A stretch of 21,376 nt of DNA from Saccoglossus kowalevskii (Eukaryota; Hemichordata; Enteropneusta; Harrimaniidae), in assembly GCF_000003605.2 (NCBI RefSeq), contig NW_003126386.1, positions 387,962 through 409,337 of the forward strand, read 5' to 3'. A program made the position numbers and the translations under genes. This document shows, piece by piece, positions 3,058 to 21,100 of the stretch. Each line of letters opens with the position of its first letter. The stretch's first letter is position 1. Under the pieces are notes generated by a model. It saw only the letters and a program-made list of their open reading frames with translations. It did not search any database and was not told where the DNA came from.

Positions 3058-3320
3058 TCAGACACACAGTTGAGGGTACATCTGAACATGTCATAGCCTT
3101 TCAGACAGACAACGATGGTACATCTCAACATAGGTGACATAATTCCATGGTTTTAGCCTTTCAGACGGACAGTGATGGTACATCTCAACATAGGTGACAT
3201 AATTCCAAGGTTATAGCCTTTCAGACGGACAGTGATGGTACATCTCAACATAGGTGACATAATTCTATGGTTATAGCCTTTTCAGACAAACACTTATAGT
3301 ACATCTGAACATGTGTGATG
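3058..3320. repeat. 60-bp minisatellite, about four copies
   Basis: Three adjacent 60-base stretches starting at 3121, 3181 and 3241 are nearly identical, sharing CATCTCAACATAGGTGACAT and then AGCCTTTCAGACGGACAGTG. A shortened, diverged copy precedes them (3061-3120) and a partial one follows (3301-3320). Differences between units are single-base changes plus one inserted T near 3281. Confidence 0.93.
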
Positions 3321-8956: not shown

Positions 8957-9940
8957 TGTCAACTTTTAATAAAATTAATAAATGGGAAATTTTATCCACA
9001 ATTAACAAAGTTACCACATGATAGATACAATGGATCTCGGTTTTCTCCATCCACCGTATCATGAACATTATTATTTCATGAGTAATCGGGATCGTTCGTC
9101 CTTAGTGCCTCACAGCAACCCCAGGCCGACCCGAGCCGCCCTTTCGAACCAATCGAACTTTGTCAGGATAAATTGTCAGAATAAGTTGACAATAACTTTT
9201 GTTATGCTTCATGTACATTATTGACTATATTTATTAAAAAAATAGCACTTGCAACAACTCCAATCACACATACACTCACATATACTATGCCCAAACGCTC
9301 GATTTATGTTGTGTTAATTTATTCAGTATAATAAAACATATAAATACCTCGATACCGGTCAATATTCAGTGTTAATGACCTCCACTTCAGTAATTATTTG
9401 TTCAATGTTTATTAAAGACAAATACATAATCAATTGTTGTTTACGTGCCTGATCATCTAAGGTACTAGTACAGTTTTCTCCAACTTGACGGCCTTGCTGT
9501 CCCAAATCTTTGAGTGTCAATCAAGTGTATGGTTGTTTACTTGCATACTGGAATTCATCTCTTGTTCAAACCCAATGCAATCATGGATACGTCTGGCACA
9601 CCGGTATCACCAGGTGGTCACATTCTGGTCGTAACCTCAAGCCATGCCATTCAATATATCACATTACAATATCCATGATCCCTATGGTATACATTACATT
9701 AAATAAAGAAATTTTAAAATTAATCTCAAAATTTATACATTTATAGTTGTGTCATCCTATTTGTGCCATATATTGAGCAGACATATTGTGACATACATAA
9801 ACTTTATTTCATTATATACAGTTGATTACTCTTGAGGTTGAATGTAATGCCGGGTTTTCCTGCATTGCACGTGTTTACTTTATTAAACGTTCATTAAAAT
9901 ATATTTTTCTAATAATAACAAGATGTCTATTGTTTTAAAG
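8957..9940. other. Intergenic region upstream of the secreted-peptide gene
   Basis: No coding region seen. The stretch just before the peptide ATG ends in GTTTTAAAG (to about 9940), which could be a splice acceptor of a 5' UTR intron or simply promoter sequence. I could not identify a convincing TATA box or initiator. Confidence 0.35.
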
Positions 9941-9946
9941 GACAAT

Positions 9947-10355
9947 ATGGAGGCCTATATGGTATGTATTATAGTATGTGTAGCATTGGTGATTCCCATC
10001 AATGCATCCCCAATGATGAAGAGAGACGAGGGAGGAGACGATGAAGTTGGGGAAGAAGGCAAGTAAATTACATCGCATTAAAACACCAGATGAATGTTTC
10101 GAAAGGACGACGAAATGCATAGTATCTTGTACAAATTGTCGTTCGAGATATTTCTTTTTTCTCCCTACAGTTAGAACGTGCAGTGAGTTGGGGGAGGAAG
10201 ACGCTACAGGATGCGTTTGCGCAGAATTGGAAACAGGAATGCAGTTCGTATGTACAGAGGAAGCCACTGGTAGCCCAGATATGTCGATGGGTCTAGATAT
10301 TAAGAAACGTGACGCAAAGAAATTGGAAGAAGGCTGTTGTGGCCCCCTACTGTAG
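9947..10355 (+). CDS. Small secreted cysteine-containing peptide precursor, family not recognised
   Basis: Two exons, 9947-10058 and 10171-10355, encode 98 residues. Residues 1-20 (MEAYMVCIIVCVALVIPINA) look like a signal peptide ending in an AxA-like site. A Lys-Arg pair lies at 25-26, then an acidic stretch. Cysteines follow at 41, 52, 54 and 65, a Lys-Lys-Arg site at 82-84, and a CC pair at 93-94 near the end. That layout is typical of a secreted peptide-hormone or defence-peptide precursor, but I recognise no family and assign no function. The 112-bp intron starts with GC in an ideal AG|GCAAGT context and ends CTCCCTACAG. The overlapping GT donor two bases further in from the exon end would run straight into a stop codon after splicing, so the GC donor is needed. 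The joint falls in phase 1. A strong donor (AAG|GTAAAG) lies 12 bases after the stop, so a further, at least untranslated, exon is likely. Confidence 0.6.
10059..10170 (+). other. GC-AG intron of the secreted-peptide gene
   Basis: The intron starts GCAAGTAAAT after exon-terminal AAG and ends in a pyrimidine-rich TTTCTTTTTTCTCCCTACAG. GC donors are a known minor class that usually compensate with an otherwise perfect match to U1, as seen here. Only this donor gives an open frame into the cysteine-rich second exon. Confidence 0.6.
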
Positions 10356-10527
10356 TTGTACCCTAAGGTAAAGAAAACAACAAAACCTACATGTTGCCGT
10401 ACACTGTGGGAGAGTATATTTTACTCCTAGTAATTAATAAGCTTGTTACAAAAAACACGGGCATGTTTACATTGTGTACTACTATAACCATGGTTACATA
10501 TCAGCCTAGAGAATTGCCCCCTTGGCC

Positions 10528-10631
<104 letters not shown>

Positions 10632-10745
10632 AAAGAGAGCGAGAGAGAGAGCGTTTTTTCTTTACTTTTGGTTCTAATCATCAAATAACGTACCCAAAGT
10701 ATTCATATACGTACATGTCCCGGGGGGGGGCAAACGTAACTGGAA

Positions 10746-10791
10746 AGGTCATATTGACCACTATATGTATATATGGTTGCATGTGACGTCA
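10746..10791. promoter_or_regulatory. Candidate nuclear-receptor and CRE-type palindromes
   Basis: AGGTCATATTGACCA (10746-10760) contains a perfect GGTCAnnnTGACC inverted half-site pair, the core of an oestrogen-receptor-type element. The palindromic cAMP-response octamer TGACGTCA follows at 10784-10791. Both lie in the presumed intron downstream of the secreted-peptide coding exons. Binding and function are untested, and single sites can occur by chance. Confidence 0.3.
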
Positions 10792-11047
10792 CTGTATGTC
10801 CGCGTTCACAGCGCGCTACCCTCGAGTCGTCTTTTTGGGACGGTTAGTTTAGTTAGGCGTTTGGCTGTATCGTCAGTGTGCATATTAAATTCAGTCACTA
10901 AAATCTTATCTCATCGCAACATTTTTCATAACGTATATTTTGTAATCGGGAGATTTAAAGGCCAGTTATGATGTTAAGATCAACGAAATTATGGGTGGTG
11001 TTTAAATAGGAATACATTTTATCTGTGTGTTTTTTTTTTACCTACAG

Positions 11048-11308
11048 ACAGCAACGTGTTCGCCTTGACTTCGACGAGCAACCAAGACAAGTGATACTGA
11101 ATAATCGTATTTTTAACGTGACCTCACTATATTTCTCAATGAATATTCACTTATTCTCTTGATAAAAGTTTAAATATTACAAATCACAATGAACTTTCAG
11201 GACAGGATTGGTGTTTATTGAAAAGGCTTTGAAATTTGCGTCGAAAACAGTTTTAGAACTTATTTCCTTGATTGTATGAACAGGTGTTGAAAATGAAAAC
11301 AAAATAAA
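11048..11308 (+). other. Possible third (terminal) exon of the secreted-peptide gene
   Basis: A strong acceptor, GTTTTTTTTTTACCTACAG, ends at 11047, and an AATAAA-type signal lies at 11303-11308. If spliced to the donor at 10368, this block would be 3' UTR for the 98-residue reading. If an upstream frame difference exists (see findings) it could be partly coding. There is no independent coding signature, so the call rests on splice signals only. Confidence 0.35.
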
Positions 11309-11309
11309 A

Positions 11310-12200
11310 ATCACATAAAGTGAAGTGAACAGAAAAAAAAAACATGTTTCCAAAGCCTATGTAGTTCTCCCAGAGTTTCAAATTTCCGCTACTAATGGTA
11401 TTTTTTTCCCCACGGTGGACAGAAGATATTCCAAGTTGTCCGTCTGAAATACTCATCTTCATTCAAGTATGTTGTAACAACAACTACATGACTCTTTGAA
11501 GGATGCGTCATCATGGCGGTGATAACAATTTCTACCACCATGATTTCATTAAATTTTCAATCAAAGATGGCGGCGGCCAGTGTTACACTCAGATATTTTA
11601 ATATCATCTGTAATTCTTATATCACAATGAATACACATGGCGTGATCAATGTAAATTGTTCTTGTATTTATTATATACTGGCCACAATGCTGCAACTCCT
11701 ACCCCCGAATTCATATAACTCGGACATTCAAAGAACAATTATTCACAAATTCGCAATTTTTTTTTCTCGATACAAGAAACATATTTCTAACAGCCCAGAA
11801 AGCATGCCTTATTTCCTCCCATAGACTGTAATACCAGATACCCCTTTCTCAGAATACAGAAACACGGAATTGTATCAATTTGATCTCAAAGTGCCACCAC
11901 AGGGGCAGCAAATAACGTGTATGTATGTGAAATAGATGTGTTCGCTTTTAAATACGCATGAAGTAGGGATTTACCAAGCGTATAAAAATACATACTGACA
12001 GCTTTGTGATGCCGATAGCAAGGTAGATAGTGACGTGTGGGGATGGCATACAAGGAGACCATGCAGACAACACTTACGCATTGGTCTGTATTACTATAAT
12101 TATGCTAATGAGTCCAATACATCTAGAGAAGGGTGTTATGTACATATTCATCATTTCGTTCCGAGTAACCCTATAGCGCGGACGGAAATCACTTTTACAG
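11310..12200. other. Intergenic, no gene seen
   Basis: AT-rich sequence. One AAAGATGGCGGC at about 11563-11574 resembles a YY1-type promoter element, but no transcript start or gene can be attached to it. Confidence 0.35.
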
Positions 12201-16648: not shown

Positions 16649-17982
16649 TCACAATGGTAAATTGGTATTGCAACGCTCCTGTCTGTTCTTCCAGTGCCAT
16701 AAAAAAAATATGACAAAATATCCGGTGCTTTCCAACGTAACTGAATCTTTAATGTCGGCGTTTTTATGTCTAGTCTGGTACTTCTCAAAAAATAACTGAC
16801 GTGCGACAGGTTCATTCTCGATGCCAAAATCTAGGTGCGGAGACTGCACTTGCTGATTACGAGTACTTGGTATTGTTTTCACGATGTAGTTGTCTGAATT
16901 ATTAGTTTCCCGCATATGAAGCACGCAGTGAGCTATACTGGCAGTTACACGGCCATGTAGATATTTAAACCAATGTGACGAGTTTCGCTGATTTAGTGAA
17001 AGTGATGTCATTAGTTCAATGTCGGACACAGTGAGTTCGTTTGCCATGTACTGTATAAAATTAGTAGTACACATGTACTTGAAGATTTGAATTTATTGCC
17101 TAGATCCGGAATTGTTGATGGTTCTGTTACTGAGTTTAACATTGGATCCAACATGTGGTTGTAGTTCACAGAGGAAATATCGTAAATAGCTTTGATTAAA
17201 TCTTCGTTGTTTTCATGGCATGATTTTCTTTCTCGGTTGTGTTGCGCGATCTTTGTGGCGCGAGTCAAAATCCTGGATACTAAATAGTAGTGCCACACAG
17301 TGTTTGCATGAACCATGTTCTCTATTATATTTTCAATGGAAATTATTTTTAGTTACAATCATTAAAGCGATTATTAATAACATTTATTTCAAGTGACGTC
17401 GACAAGGAGCGGAAGTATAACATATGTCCAGTGACGCTTGTAATTGCGTCTAGTTCTTAATAAAAAAAACCTGACTTATGCAACGCAATTACGTTACAGC
17501 CACCGGAAACCAGCATTGGTAAGGTTTTTCTTTTTGGGATGTTTCTCGAACACACTCAGCCATGATTTAAATAACTTCAGTTTCTTTAACATGGTGAAGC
17601 TTGATGGAAACAATATGTCCATCTTTGTACAGAAGAAAACCATAGCCAAGTCGATATTCTTTTAACGGTGCCCAGTCACATCAATGTATCAAGTACGCAA
17701 ATATATCTGCAGTTTCGAATGATGGCATGTAATGGAGGTTTTGCCCTCAGGTTTTGATAGTATACGGATCTTCTAATGTCAGGGTAGATTCCTTGTCCTG
17801 AACTGTACGGCGACGCTTGCTCGAGGTTTCGCGATCGTCAGGCTCTAAAGGGCGAACTTTTAACTCATTTGCAAGTTCCACGAGTTCAATCAGCTTGGAC
17901 TTCTGTGTATTACAACAGCTATTCCTCGTTCTTGTAGAAACTGACGTAATTCAGAAACTTTTTTCGAATGCAAATTTTCCAT
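16649..17982 (-). pseudogene. Decayed SAP-domain / YqaJ-type nuclease-domain gene
   Basis: The relic reads from 17982 towards lower coordinates. ATG at 17982 begins MENLHSKKVSELRQFLQERG, a typical SAP (DNA-binding) start. After a frame change near 17911-17918 the SAP helix continues as KSKLIELVELANELKV, then a basic SSKRRR stretch. Further on, MPSFETADIFAYLI and GYGFLLYKDGHIV resemble the middle region known in SAP-YqaJ proteins. In-frame stops occur at 17749-17747, 17683-17681 and 17569-17567. A second frame change near 17070-17085 leads into LTVSDIELMTSLSLNQRNS, then WFKYLHGRVTAS and FGIENEPVARQLFFEKYQ, which match the N-terminal half of a YqaJ-like exonuclease domain. The downstream catalytic SPDG and E-x-K parts are not found, and the zinc-binding SWIM-like part seen in relatives is also missing. 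Several stops, frame changes and missing active-site parts mark it as dead. Such genes are often multicopy in invertebrates, so a live relative elsewhere is likely. Confidence 0.7.
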
Positions 17983-18555
17983 TGTTACGCTTCTGTGAAC
18001 AGCAAAAAGCAACCCCACTGGGAGTACGCCCCCGCACGGCGAAACCTTGAAATGCATATGTAAATTAGCTGCCATTGAGAACTTGAAAATTGGGAAATGT
18101 AGTGGGAAACAAAAATTAAGAAAACGTTCACGGCGTCCACTCCGGCCTGCGACATTATATGTTGACGAAAAGTGTGCGCAATAAGATTGACCATTAACAA
18201 CTCTGCGGCGATGATACGATTGAAAAAAACAACACACACACACTTTAGATTCGGGTTTATGAATAATATGATTTACCAGTAAATGACGTAGTGTTAGAAT
18301 AGAGAAAACATAGAAAATGGCCTTTTACCGTAGTTTTAAAACACAATGTATTGAACTAATTACTATCGAGAAGTATACCAATTTATACAATTGCAATTTT
18401 ATAATGAACCGATGTTTTACAAATAATGTTATATACCGAATAATGCCATCACGTCAGACAGGTACATGTGAAATATAATCATGATGCAAATAGTTTTAAT
18501 TAAACCTTATACATAAGTTTAAAAAAATATTATCTCATCTTATGCTTTATTTCAG
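17983..18555. other. Spacer between the YqaJ-type relic and the bursicon-like gene
   Basis: Holds the former upstream region of the minus-strand relic and then AT-rich sequence that is probably the 5' UTR intron of the bursicon-like gene, ending TTATGCTTTATTTCAG at 18555. A short CA repeat lies at 18230-18241. No other gene seen. Confidence 0.4.
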
Positions 18556-18576: not shown

Positions 18577-18978
18577 ATGTTTTCATCGAGAAGTATATCA
18601 TCTTTGGTCTTAATCTCCGTCATTGTAGTCATGGCAACGTACCCACCAATCACATCGGCGGAGTGTTCGTCAGCCTTTGCGCACATGATTGTTACATACC
18701 CTGGATGTATCCCCAAACGCATACCGACAATGGCCTGTAGAGGGAGCTGTCCATCATACACTGAACCACATTGGAGTAATGTGTATCAAGAACTGGTTTA
18801 CAAAGATTTTTGCACGTGCTGTGCTCCTTTGCATAAACGAGTCGGCACCGTTAATTTGCGATGCCCGGGACGTGAGGGCGGACCTACAATGGCTATGAAA
18901 GTACAGGCTGCCTTGGACTGTCAGTGTCGACCATGTTCTAATGGCTATATCAGACCCCTGGACGAAGAAGAATATTAA
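18577..18978 (+). CDS. Burs: Bursicon alpha-like cystine-knot neurohormone
   Basis: An uninterrupted 133-residue protein. Residues 1-28 form a signal peptide (hydrophobic SLVLISVIVVMA, cleavage expected after TSA). The rest is a cystine-knot domain with 11 cysteines at 30, 44, 54, 58, 79, 81, 82, 96, 115, 117 and 120. Bursicon-alpha landmarks are present in order: YPGCIPK, ACRGSC (the CxGxC knot), FCTCC, LRCP and LDCQCRPC. The odd cysteine is the one bursicon alpha uses for its heterodimer with bursicon beta. In arthropods the dimer acts through the receptor LGR2/rickets in cuticle tanning and wing expansion, and homodimers in immune signalling; its role outside arthropods is less clear. The domain has the usual size, with only a 13-residue acidic tail after CRPC. 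The mature coding part is one exon. An acceptor (TTTATTTCAG|AGTC) lies 21 bases before the ATG with no in-frame stop between, so an upstream 5' UTR exon is likely and extra N-terminal residues cannot be excluded. No bursicon-beta partner is in the window. Confidence 0.85.
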   Translation: MFSSRSISSLVLISVIVVMATYPPITSAECSSAFAHMIVTYPGCIPKRIPTMACRGSCPSYTEPHWSNVYQELVYKDFCTCCAPLHKRVGTVNLRCPGREGGPTMAMKVQAALDCQCRPCSNGYIRPLDEEEY

Positions 18979-19674: not shown

Positions 19675-19741
19675 GTCAACTCACCCCAGTGCCGTCAGTT
19701 GACAAGCTCAACTCACCCCAGTGCCGTCAGTTGACAAGCTC
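19675..19741. repeat. 32-bp tandem duplication containing a 9-bp inverted repeat
   Basis: CAACTCACCCCAGTGCCGTC followed by AGTTGACAAGCT occurs twice in tandem, starting at 19677 and 19709. In the first copy TTGTCAACT and AGTTGACAA form a perfect 9-bp stem around a 15-base loop. GTGGAAGCTAG occurs on both sides of the pair (about 19653 and 19744), so the whole block may sit between short direct repeats. Confidence 0.9.
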
Positions 19742-20405: not shown

Positions 20406-21100
20406 AGCTCCGCTGTCGACTTTGTCGAGCGGAGCTTATCATATGAGTGACTGTCCGTCGTCGTCCGTCGTCCGTGTCAATGTTTTACTTTTTCGACTTC
20501 TTGAAAACTACAAGCCTGGATGCTTTGATACTTGGTGTATATGTACCTTGGGTAGACCTCTCTTAGGTTTGTTCATTTCATGTTTATATCTTCAATTCTC
20601 TGATTTTGTTGAAAATTTTTGTCATTTTTGGTAAAAAGTGATATTTTCGACTCCTTGTTAAAAACCAAAAGTTCAATTGCTTTGATATTACATATATAGG
20701 TACTACATGTGAACCTCTCTCAGATTTGTTCATTTTGTAATGATATCTTTAATTCTCTAATTTTGGTGAATATTTTTGTAATTTTTGGTAAAAAGTGATA
20801 TTTTCGACTTCTTGTTAAAAACCAAAAGTTCAATTGCTTTGATATTACATATATAGATACTACATGTAGACCTTTCTCAGATTTGTTCATTTCGTGATGA
20901 TATCTTGAATTCTCTAATTTTGGTGAATATTTTTATCATTTTTGGTAGAAAGTGATATTTTCGACCTGTCGTTAAAAACTGTAAGTCTGATTGCTTTGAT
21001 ACTATACATATTGTTCATTTTCTAATGATGTCTTCAGTTCTTTAATTGAAATGTGCATTGATAACAGCAAAGCTATCGCAGCCGATAGGCTGCTTGTTAT
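20406..21100. repeat. Hairpin-capped array of 157-bp repeat units
   Basis: The block opens with a strong hairpin at 20406-20436: AGCTCCGC pairs with GCGGAGCT and, inside it, TCGAC pairs with GTCGA around TTT, with a two-base bulge. A GTCCGTCGTC-rich stretch follows (20452-20475). Then come about 3.5 diverged copies of a 157-bp unit with GTGATATTTTCGAC at 20638, 20795 and 20952; an earlier, more diverged copy starts near 20487. It closes with a second imperfect hairpin, ATAACAGCAAAGCTATCG (21061-21078) against CGATAGGCTGCTTGTTAT (21083-21100). The open frames at 20422-20634 and 21051-21314 are artefacts of this repeat and its flank. Confidence 0.85.

Follow-up and report, generated by a model that had tools for sequence, protein, structure and literature searches.

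Does the window (the whole stretch of 21,376 nucleotides of Saccoglossus kowalevskii DNA analysed here, bases 387962-409337 of contig C1911) carry a genuine gene for a small secreted peptide, and does that peptide belong to any known family? The first-pass annotation, made from the letters alone, had proposed two exons, 9947-10058 and 10171-10355, which join in phase and encode a peptide precursor with a prohormone layout. Translation confirmed these coordinates exactly: exons of 112 and 185 nt, with a phase-1 join, encode 98 residues. The gene model and the features predicted around it are as follows.

9923..9946, forward strand: possible N-terminal extension of exon 1 by 8 residues (ATG at 9923 in frame, no stop up to 9947).
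9947..10058, forward strand: coding exon 1, comprising the signal peptide (residues about 1-20), SPMM, the KR site and an acidic spacer; ends in phase 1.
10059..10170, forward strand: intron 1, 112 bases, of GC-AG type (AAG/GCAAGT ... CTCCCTACAG); the in-frame join needs it.
10171..10355, forward strand: coding exon 2, comprising the four-cysteine acidic segment, the KKR site, the C-terminal LEEGCCGPLL and TAG.
10356..10367, forward strand: putative first part of the 3' UTR, ending at a candidate donor AAG/GTAAAG (7/9).
10368..11046, forward strand: possible 3' UTR intron, read from the sequence, ending in TTTTTTTTTTACCTACAG and holding the (TA)n array at 10530-10629.
11047..11330, forward strand: a terminal non-coding exon may lie here; its AATAAA is at 11303-11308 and its end is approximate.

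Besides the ATG at 9947, in-frame ATGs are found at 9923 and 9959. At the other end of the model, AATAAA is present in the window 53 times versus 49.15 expected, i.e. at chance frequency, and thus gives weak support to the end of the last exon.

The residues singled out by the first-pass annotation are all where it had placed them: KR at 25-26, cysteines at 41, 52, 54 and 65, KKR at 82-84 and CC at 93-94. We found one more dibasic site, KK87-88, absent from that annotation. The complete set of cysteines is C7, C11, C41, C52, C54, C65, C93 and C94; C7 and C11 fall inside the signal-like core, and the other six are downstream of the signal. The middle cysteines form the pattern C-x10-C-x-C-x10-C (C41-x10-C52 and C54-x10-C65), and 33 residues follow C65. 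Residues 27-81, which hold four cysteines, are strongly acidic, with 17 D/E against 1 K/R. The hydrophobic core VCIIVCVALVIPI of the putative signal peptide passes a simple in-house rule; by the -3/-1 rule, applied by eye, the signal peptide is likely to be cut after A20. The precursor is short and has no repeated peptides. There is no Gly-basic amidation signal at its C-terminus, no Gly precedes a basic site anywhere in the 98 residues, and no RW, RF or RY motif is present in them.

Intron 1 has a GC donor rather than GT (AAG/GCAAGT, matching the consensus at 8/9 positions), a point left unmentioned in the first-pass annotation, and its acceptor is pyrimidine-rich. A rival GT donor (CAA/GTAAAT, 7/9 consensus positions) is located at 10063, four bases downstream; splicing there would read GGC AAT TAG, a stop after residue 39. 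The two donors overlap within 10056-10068 of the window, and since the GC donor alone keeps the frame, alternative use of the GT donor would turn the product off. The sequence MAGGCAAGT has one copy in the window versus 0.20 expected, and at least one copy in 18 of 100 shuffles. GC-AG is described as a major non-canonical intron type, while GT-AG averages 98.3% of annotated animal introns (PMC7072748); GC-AG introns of human and mouse are reported to be enriched as first introns, to be shorter and to have weaker sites (PMC7242645). The present case suggests that gene finders restricted to GT donors could truncate genes of this kind.

The donor pair bears on the reading in which the locus is not coding as modelled, so that the two frames are open by chance, or the gene product comes from an unspliced ORF of 104 aa (10041-10355), or splicing at GT-10063 leaves a 39-residue product. 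Such a reading gains from the requirement for a GC donor with a near-equal GT donor adjoining it, and from the 104-aa ORF, which runs stop-free through intron 1; it loses from the pyrimidine-rich acceptor and, as to the unspliced form, from the translated start of the 104-aa ORF, which has no hydrophobic signal. With the chance frequency of the layout and the coding evidence given below also taken into account, we judge it quite improbable.

How often a similar layout arises by chance was assessed with a script that builds signal-plus-one-intron models on real, shuffled and reversed DNA. The loose layout was defined by a signal-like start, at least four cysteines, at least two dibasic pairs and at most 150 residues past the signal; the strict layout had a dibasic pair at most 10 residues from the signal end and at least four cysteines ahead of the second dibasic. 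With Markov orders 1, 2 and 4, the loose layout appeared in 18, 38 and 52 of 300 shuffled windows, respectively (6-17%), and the strict layout in 1, 5 and 3 of 300. In the real window the loose rule picked out four loci: the peptide gene and a DAN ORF (described below) on the forward strand, and two on the reverse strand, one of them antisense to the peptide gene. The strict rule was satisfied from the ATG at 9959 only, because of where the detector places the signal end. The reversed window yielded no loose layout, and six other stretches of the genome (33,771 non-N bases) gave none in either direction; five more stretches, which consist of N throughout, were excluded. That the layout arises by chance in some shuffled windows counts in favor of the non-coding alternative. 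Given how common the loose layout is in shuffles, we take the layout as suggestive only and the codon content as the stronger evidence.

For the latter we trained a codon model on nine chaperonin exon matches together with the first exon of NOP9, in all 1335 codons of the same genome, with DAN and luqin held out. The 98-residue frame scored 0.146 per codon, and the remaining five lay between -0.05 and -0.21. The controls were 3000 open joins taken from the rest of the window, which overlap one another and hence are not independent; all fell short of 0.146, the largest reaching 0.058. A frame that is the best of six and exceeds all 3000 controls argues against the non-coding alternative. Synonymous codon choice alone carried no coding signal (-0.038, with 1068 of the 3000 controls as high), a result on the side of that alternative; the held-out DAN and luqin genes themselves fell within the null, with 280/3000 and 624/3000 controls as high. 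The test is therefore insensitive, and it relies on an amino-acid composition biased toward E, D and G.

TESTCODE gave 0.93 for the joined exons and 0.613 for exon 2 alone. Among the controls, 227 of 20000 randomly drawn joins and 31 of 400 with an open frame scored as high as the joined exons. The statistic has little power here, since DAN scored just 0.591, with 7937 of 20000 controls as high. Base composition of the exons differs from that of introns and flanks, which again speaks against non-coding DNA: GC content is 0.446 in exon 1 and 0.486 in exon 2, compared with 0.29 in the 200 bases upstream and 0.357 and 0.328 in the introns. The value of exon 1 is not rare (454 of 4253 same-length windows are as high), and that of exon 2 is matched by 58 of 4239. 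Taken together, these data make it very likely that the locus is a genuine acorn-worm gene, one that encodes a small secreted peptide precursor without recognised relatives.

Searches for relatives supported the annotation's statement that no known family was recognised: with the precursor as query, Pfam, NCBIfam and PDB gave no match above cut-off. The only Pfam match was TrbK (E 0.23, below its cut-off), and the NCBIfam and PDB sequence searches had no significant match. A second gene copy was sought in the 572 Mb assembly at E <= 10; the search, which scores the best candidates only in an assembly with parts given as N, returned the precursor's own two exons and nothing else. An IMG/VR scan with the exon-2 peptide produced nine pattern matches, with no relative among them. 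Pieces of the peptide sequence were absent from the full text of 5.39 million open papers (supplements excluded). The mollusc Clionin was considered as a lead and dropped.

The animal itself had been taken for a lophotrochozoan. This origin is rejected on the mitochondrial gene order and code and on an exact luqin match, all of which point to the hemichordate genus Saccoglossus, most likely S. kowalevskii. The mitochondrial contig (C4830, 17,037 bases), with translations read by eye, carries ATP6-COX3-ND3-ND4L-ND4-ND5-CYTB with ND6 on the opposite strand, followed by ND2-ND1, COX1 on the opposite strand (also identified by Pfam) and COX2; from a gap between tRNA genes, the rRNAs appear to lie between ND6 and ND2. 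In this contig AAA is found at sites that we take to be conserved Lys, and ATA at presumably conserved Ile sites. The S. kowalevskii mitochondrion is reported to differ from that of Balanoglossus in an inverted COX1 and a transposed ND1 or ND2, and to read ATA as Ile and AAA as Lys (PMC3121625; PMC2697986). As for luqin, the S. kowalevskii peptide is given as EGSNTFLRW (PMC7041311); back-translated together with its amidation Gly, it had one match in the genome, and the reversed control had none. The first-pass reading of a secreted-looking precursor with prohormone-like sites and no recognised family is supported, and to it are added a coding-like codon content and the failure to find a second copy; its lophotrochozoan frame is not supported.

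The window contains several other genes or gene remnants. An intact ORF of 133 aa for a DAN/NBL1 cystine-knot protein lies some 8 kb past the peptide gene on the forward strand, at 18577-18978 (Pfam DAN, E 9.4e-11; best PDB relative NBL1, E 7.8e-11); it begins with a signal-like sequence, and 18555 may be its acceptor. The end of a NOP9 PUF domain is encoded by an exon at 831-1090 on the forward strand (E 3.9e-8), and open stretches at about 1948-2055 and 2385-2573 of the same strand, with no Pfam match above cut-off, look by eye as if they might be the last NOP9 exons. On the reverse strand there are a piece of a YqaJ-like recombinase ORF at 16649-17074 (E 1.2e-4) and a weak SAP-like ORF at 17890-18243 (E 0.01, below cut-off); perhaps the two are remains of a mobile element's gene. 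Four tandem arrays were detected:

3093-3312: 60-base unit, 3.7 copies.
10530-10629: (AT)50.
19676-19741: 32-base unit, 2.1 copies.
20552-21011: 157-base unit, 2.9 copies.

What would the peptide gene produce? We consider it fairly probable that this Saccoglossus gene encodes a small secreted peptide precursor, one for which no relative or second copy was found. After removal of the signal peptide at about residue 20, convertases of the furin/PC type would cut after KR26 and KKR84. These cuts would release an acidic peptide of 55 residues (27-81) with four cysteines in the C-x10-C-x-C-x10-C arrangement, as well as a C-terminal 14-mer, DAKKLEEGCCGPLL, or the 10-mer LEEGCCGPLL if a cut is also made after KK88. 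The CC pair may bridge to the 55-residue peptide, within itself or to a different chain. An AlphaFold model of exon 2 alone, built with no alignment, had a mean pLDDT of 52 and just two strands, precursor residues 51-57 and 60-66, which form a low-confidence hairpin (pLDDT of this block, 63-64). In such a model C54 and C65 could close the hairpin; the second C-x10-C of the mature peptide would probably close a beta-hairpin. The product would most likely serve outside the cell, as a signalling or effector peptide released by secretory or neurosecretory cells. Prohormone convertase 2 (PC2) is reported to be expressed in S. kowalevskii, for which conserved neuropeptides have already been listed (PMC10508912). 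An orphan precursor would extend this list in an animal that belongs to a key outgroup for the evolution of chordate neuroendocrine systems. Orphan cysteine-bearing secreted peptides are, nonetheless, of a common kind, and taken by itself the gene is an ordinary example of them.

The same residues could be processed otherwise. Should KR26 merely free a short pro-piece and KKR84 stay uncut, the product would be a host-defence peptide or other secreted effector, a chain of 72 residues with six cysteines. The six cysteines of residues 27-98 permit three bridges within one chain, and a short precursor with no repeated peptides fits as well. Antimicrobial peptides are usually cationic; the strong acidity of segment 27-81 goes against this alternative, which we think unlikely. 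A more elaborate scheme would have the acidic chain and LEEGCCGPLL joined by disulphides into a hemichordate-specific two-chain hormone, a heterodimer with three bridges, and the GT donor serving as its off switch. In logic it would resemble insulin (a heterodimer from one precursor), to which it is unrelated in sequence; we regard it as a speculation and give it very little credence.

Among known precursors, the preferred reading of a secreted orphan peptide has to be weighed first against luqin, whose precursors are described as having a cysteine pair spaced by ten residues as their conserved C-terminal feature (PMC7041311; PMC4772807). The luqin gene of the same genome fits the following two-exon model:

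L018 1432-1546 and C4611:373314-373453 (L019 from 1286): luqin gene, two exons.

The model encodes 84 aa; its signal precedes EGSNTFLRW-GKR, and a 2768-nt phase-1 intron separates these from a C-x10-C exon. Here two extra cysteines flank the usual pair, giving C-x17-C-x10-C-x2-C.

The window precursor is similar to this luqin precursor in size, in the order of signal, short peptide and KR, in the phase-1 intron and in the C-x10-C exon that follows. Arguably, it could be a far-diverged sister that has lost the luqin peptide and retained the C-x10-C domain; the shared order of elements speaks for this, as does the make-up of both C-x10-C loops, which by eye consist of three residues, a Gly-containing turn and three residues. 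In our judgement, phase-1 introns and C-x10-C spacing easily arise by chance. Furthermore, BLASTP of the two precursors gave E = 1.0 with the cysteine domains unpaired, and MAFFT did not align the C-x10-C pairs; in the genome search (E <= 10), the luqin cysteine exon matched itself only, and the window protein its own two exons only. The window protein also has no RWamide, RFamide or RYamide. Sister status is thus very unlikely. We rejected membership in the luqin type proper, as there is no amidated peptide, no similarity in the cysteine domain and no cross-match in the genome. The differences are plain: the window precursor has no FLRW-G-KR or other amidated peptide, it carries two C-x10-C pairs, a CC and an extra KKR, and it has no detectable sequence similarity to luqin (one luqin precursor, from the same genome, was compared).

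Of similar size and make-up, as far as published descriptions go, are the starfish orphans Arnp11, Arnp15a/b, Arnp18 and Arnp24, precursors of 83-113 aa with a signal, a dibasic site and a cysteine-bearing product without known relatives, several of them with an acidic spacer (PMC4772807). The proposed bioactive part of Arnp11, Arnp15 and Arnp18 is C-terminal and has 6, 6 and 9 cysteines, respectively, and that proposed for Arnp24 is an amidated 14-mer with two cysteines (PMC4772807). The window precursor differs from them, in a comparison made by description only, in having four cysteines within its acidic middle segment, between KR and KKR. The oyster Cragi-CCCGS, found by transcriptome mining, is likewise a small secreted cysteine-rich orphan; again by description only, it differs in being a mollusc peptide with 8 cysteines in 42 residues (PMC8398477). 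Finally, ambulacrarian precursors of the orexin type, that of S. kowalevskii included, also have six cysteines in the product (PMC4772807). There, according to the same account, all six are in one peptide, which is amidated in starfish, whereas in the window precursor, compared with them by description only, KKR splits the cysteines 4 + 2 and no amidation Gly is present.
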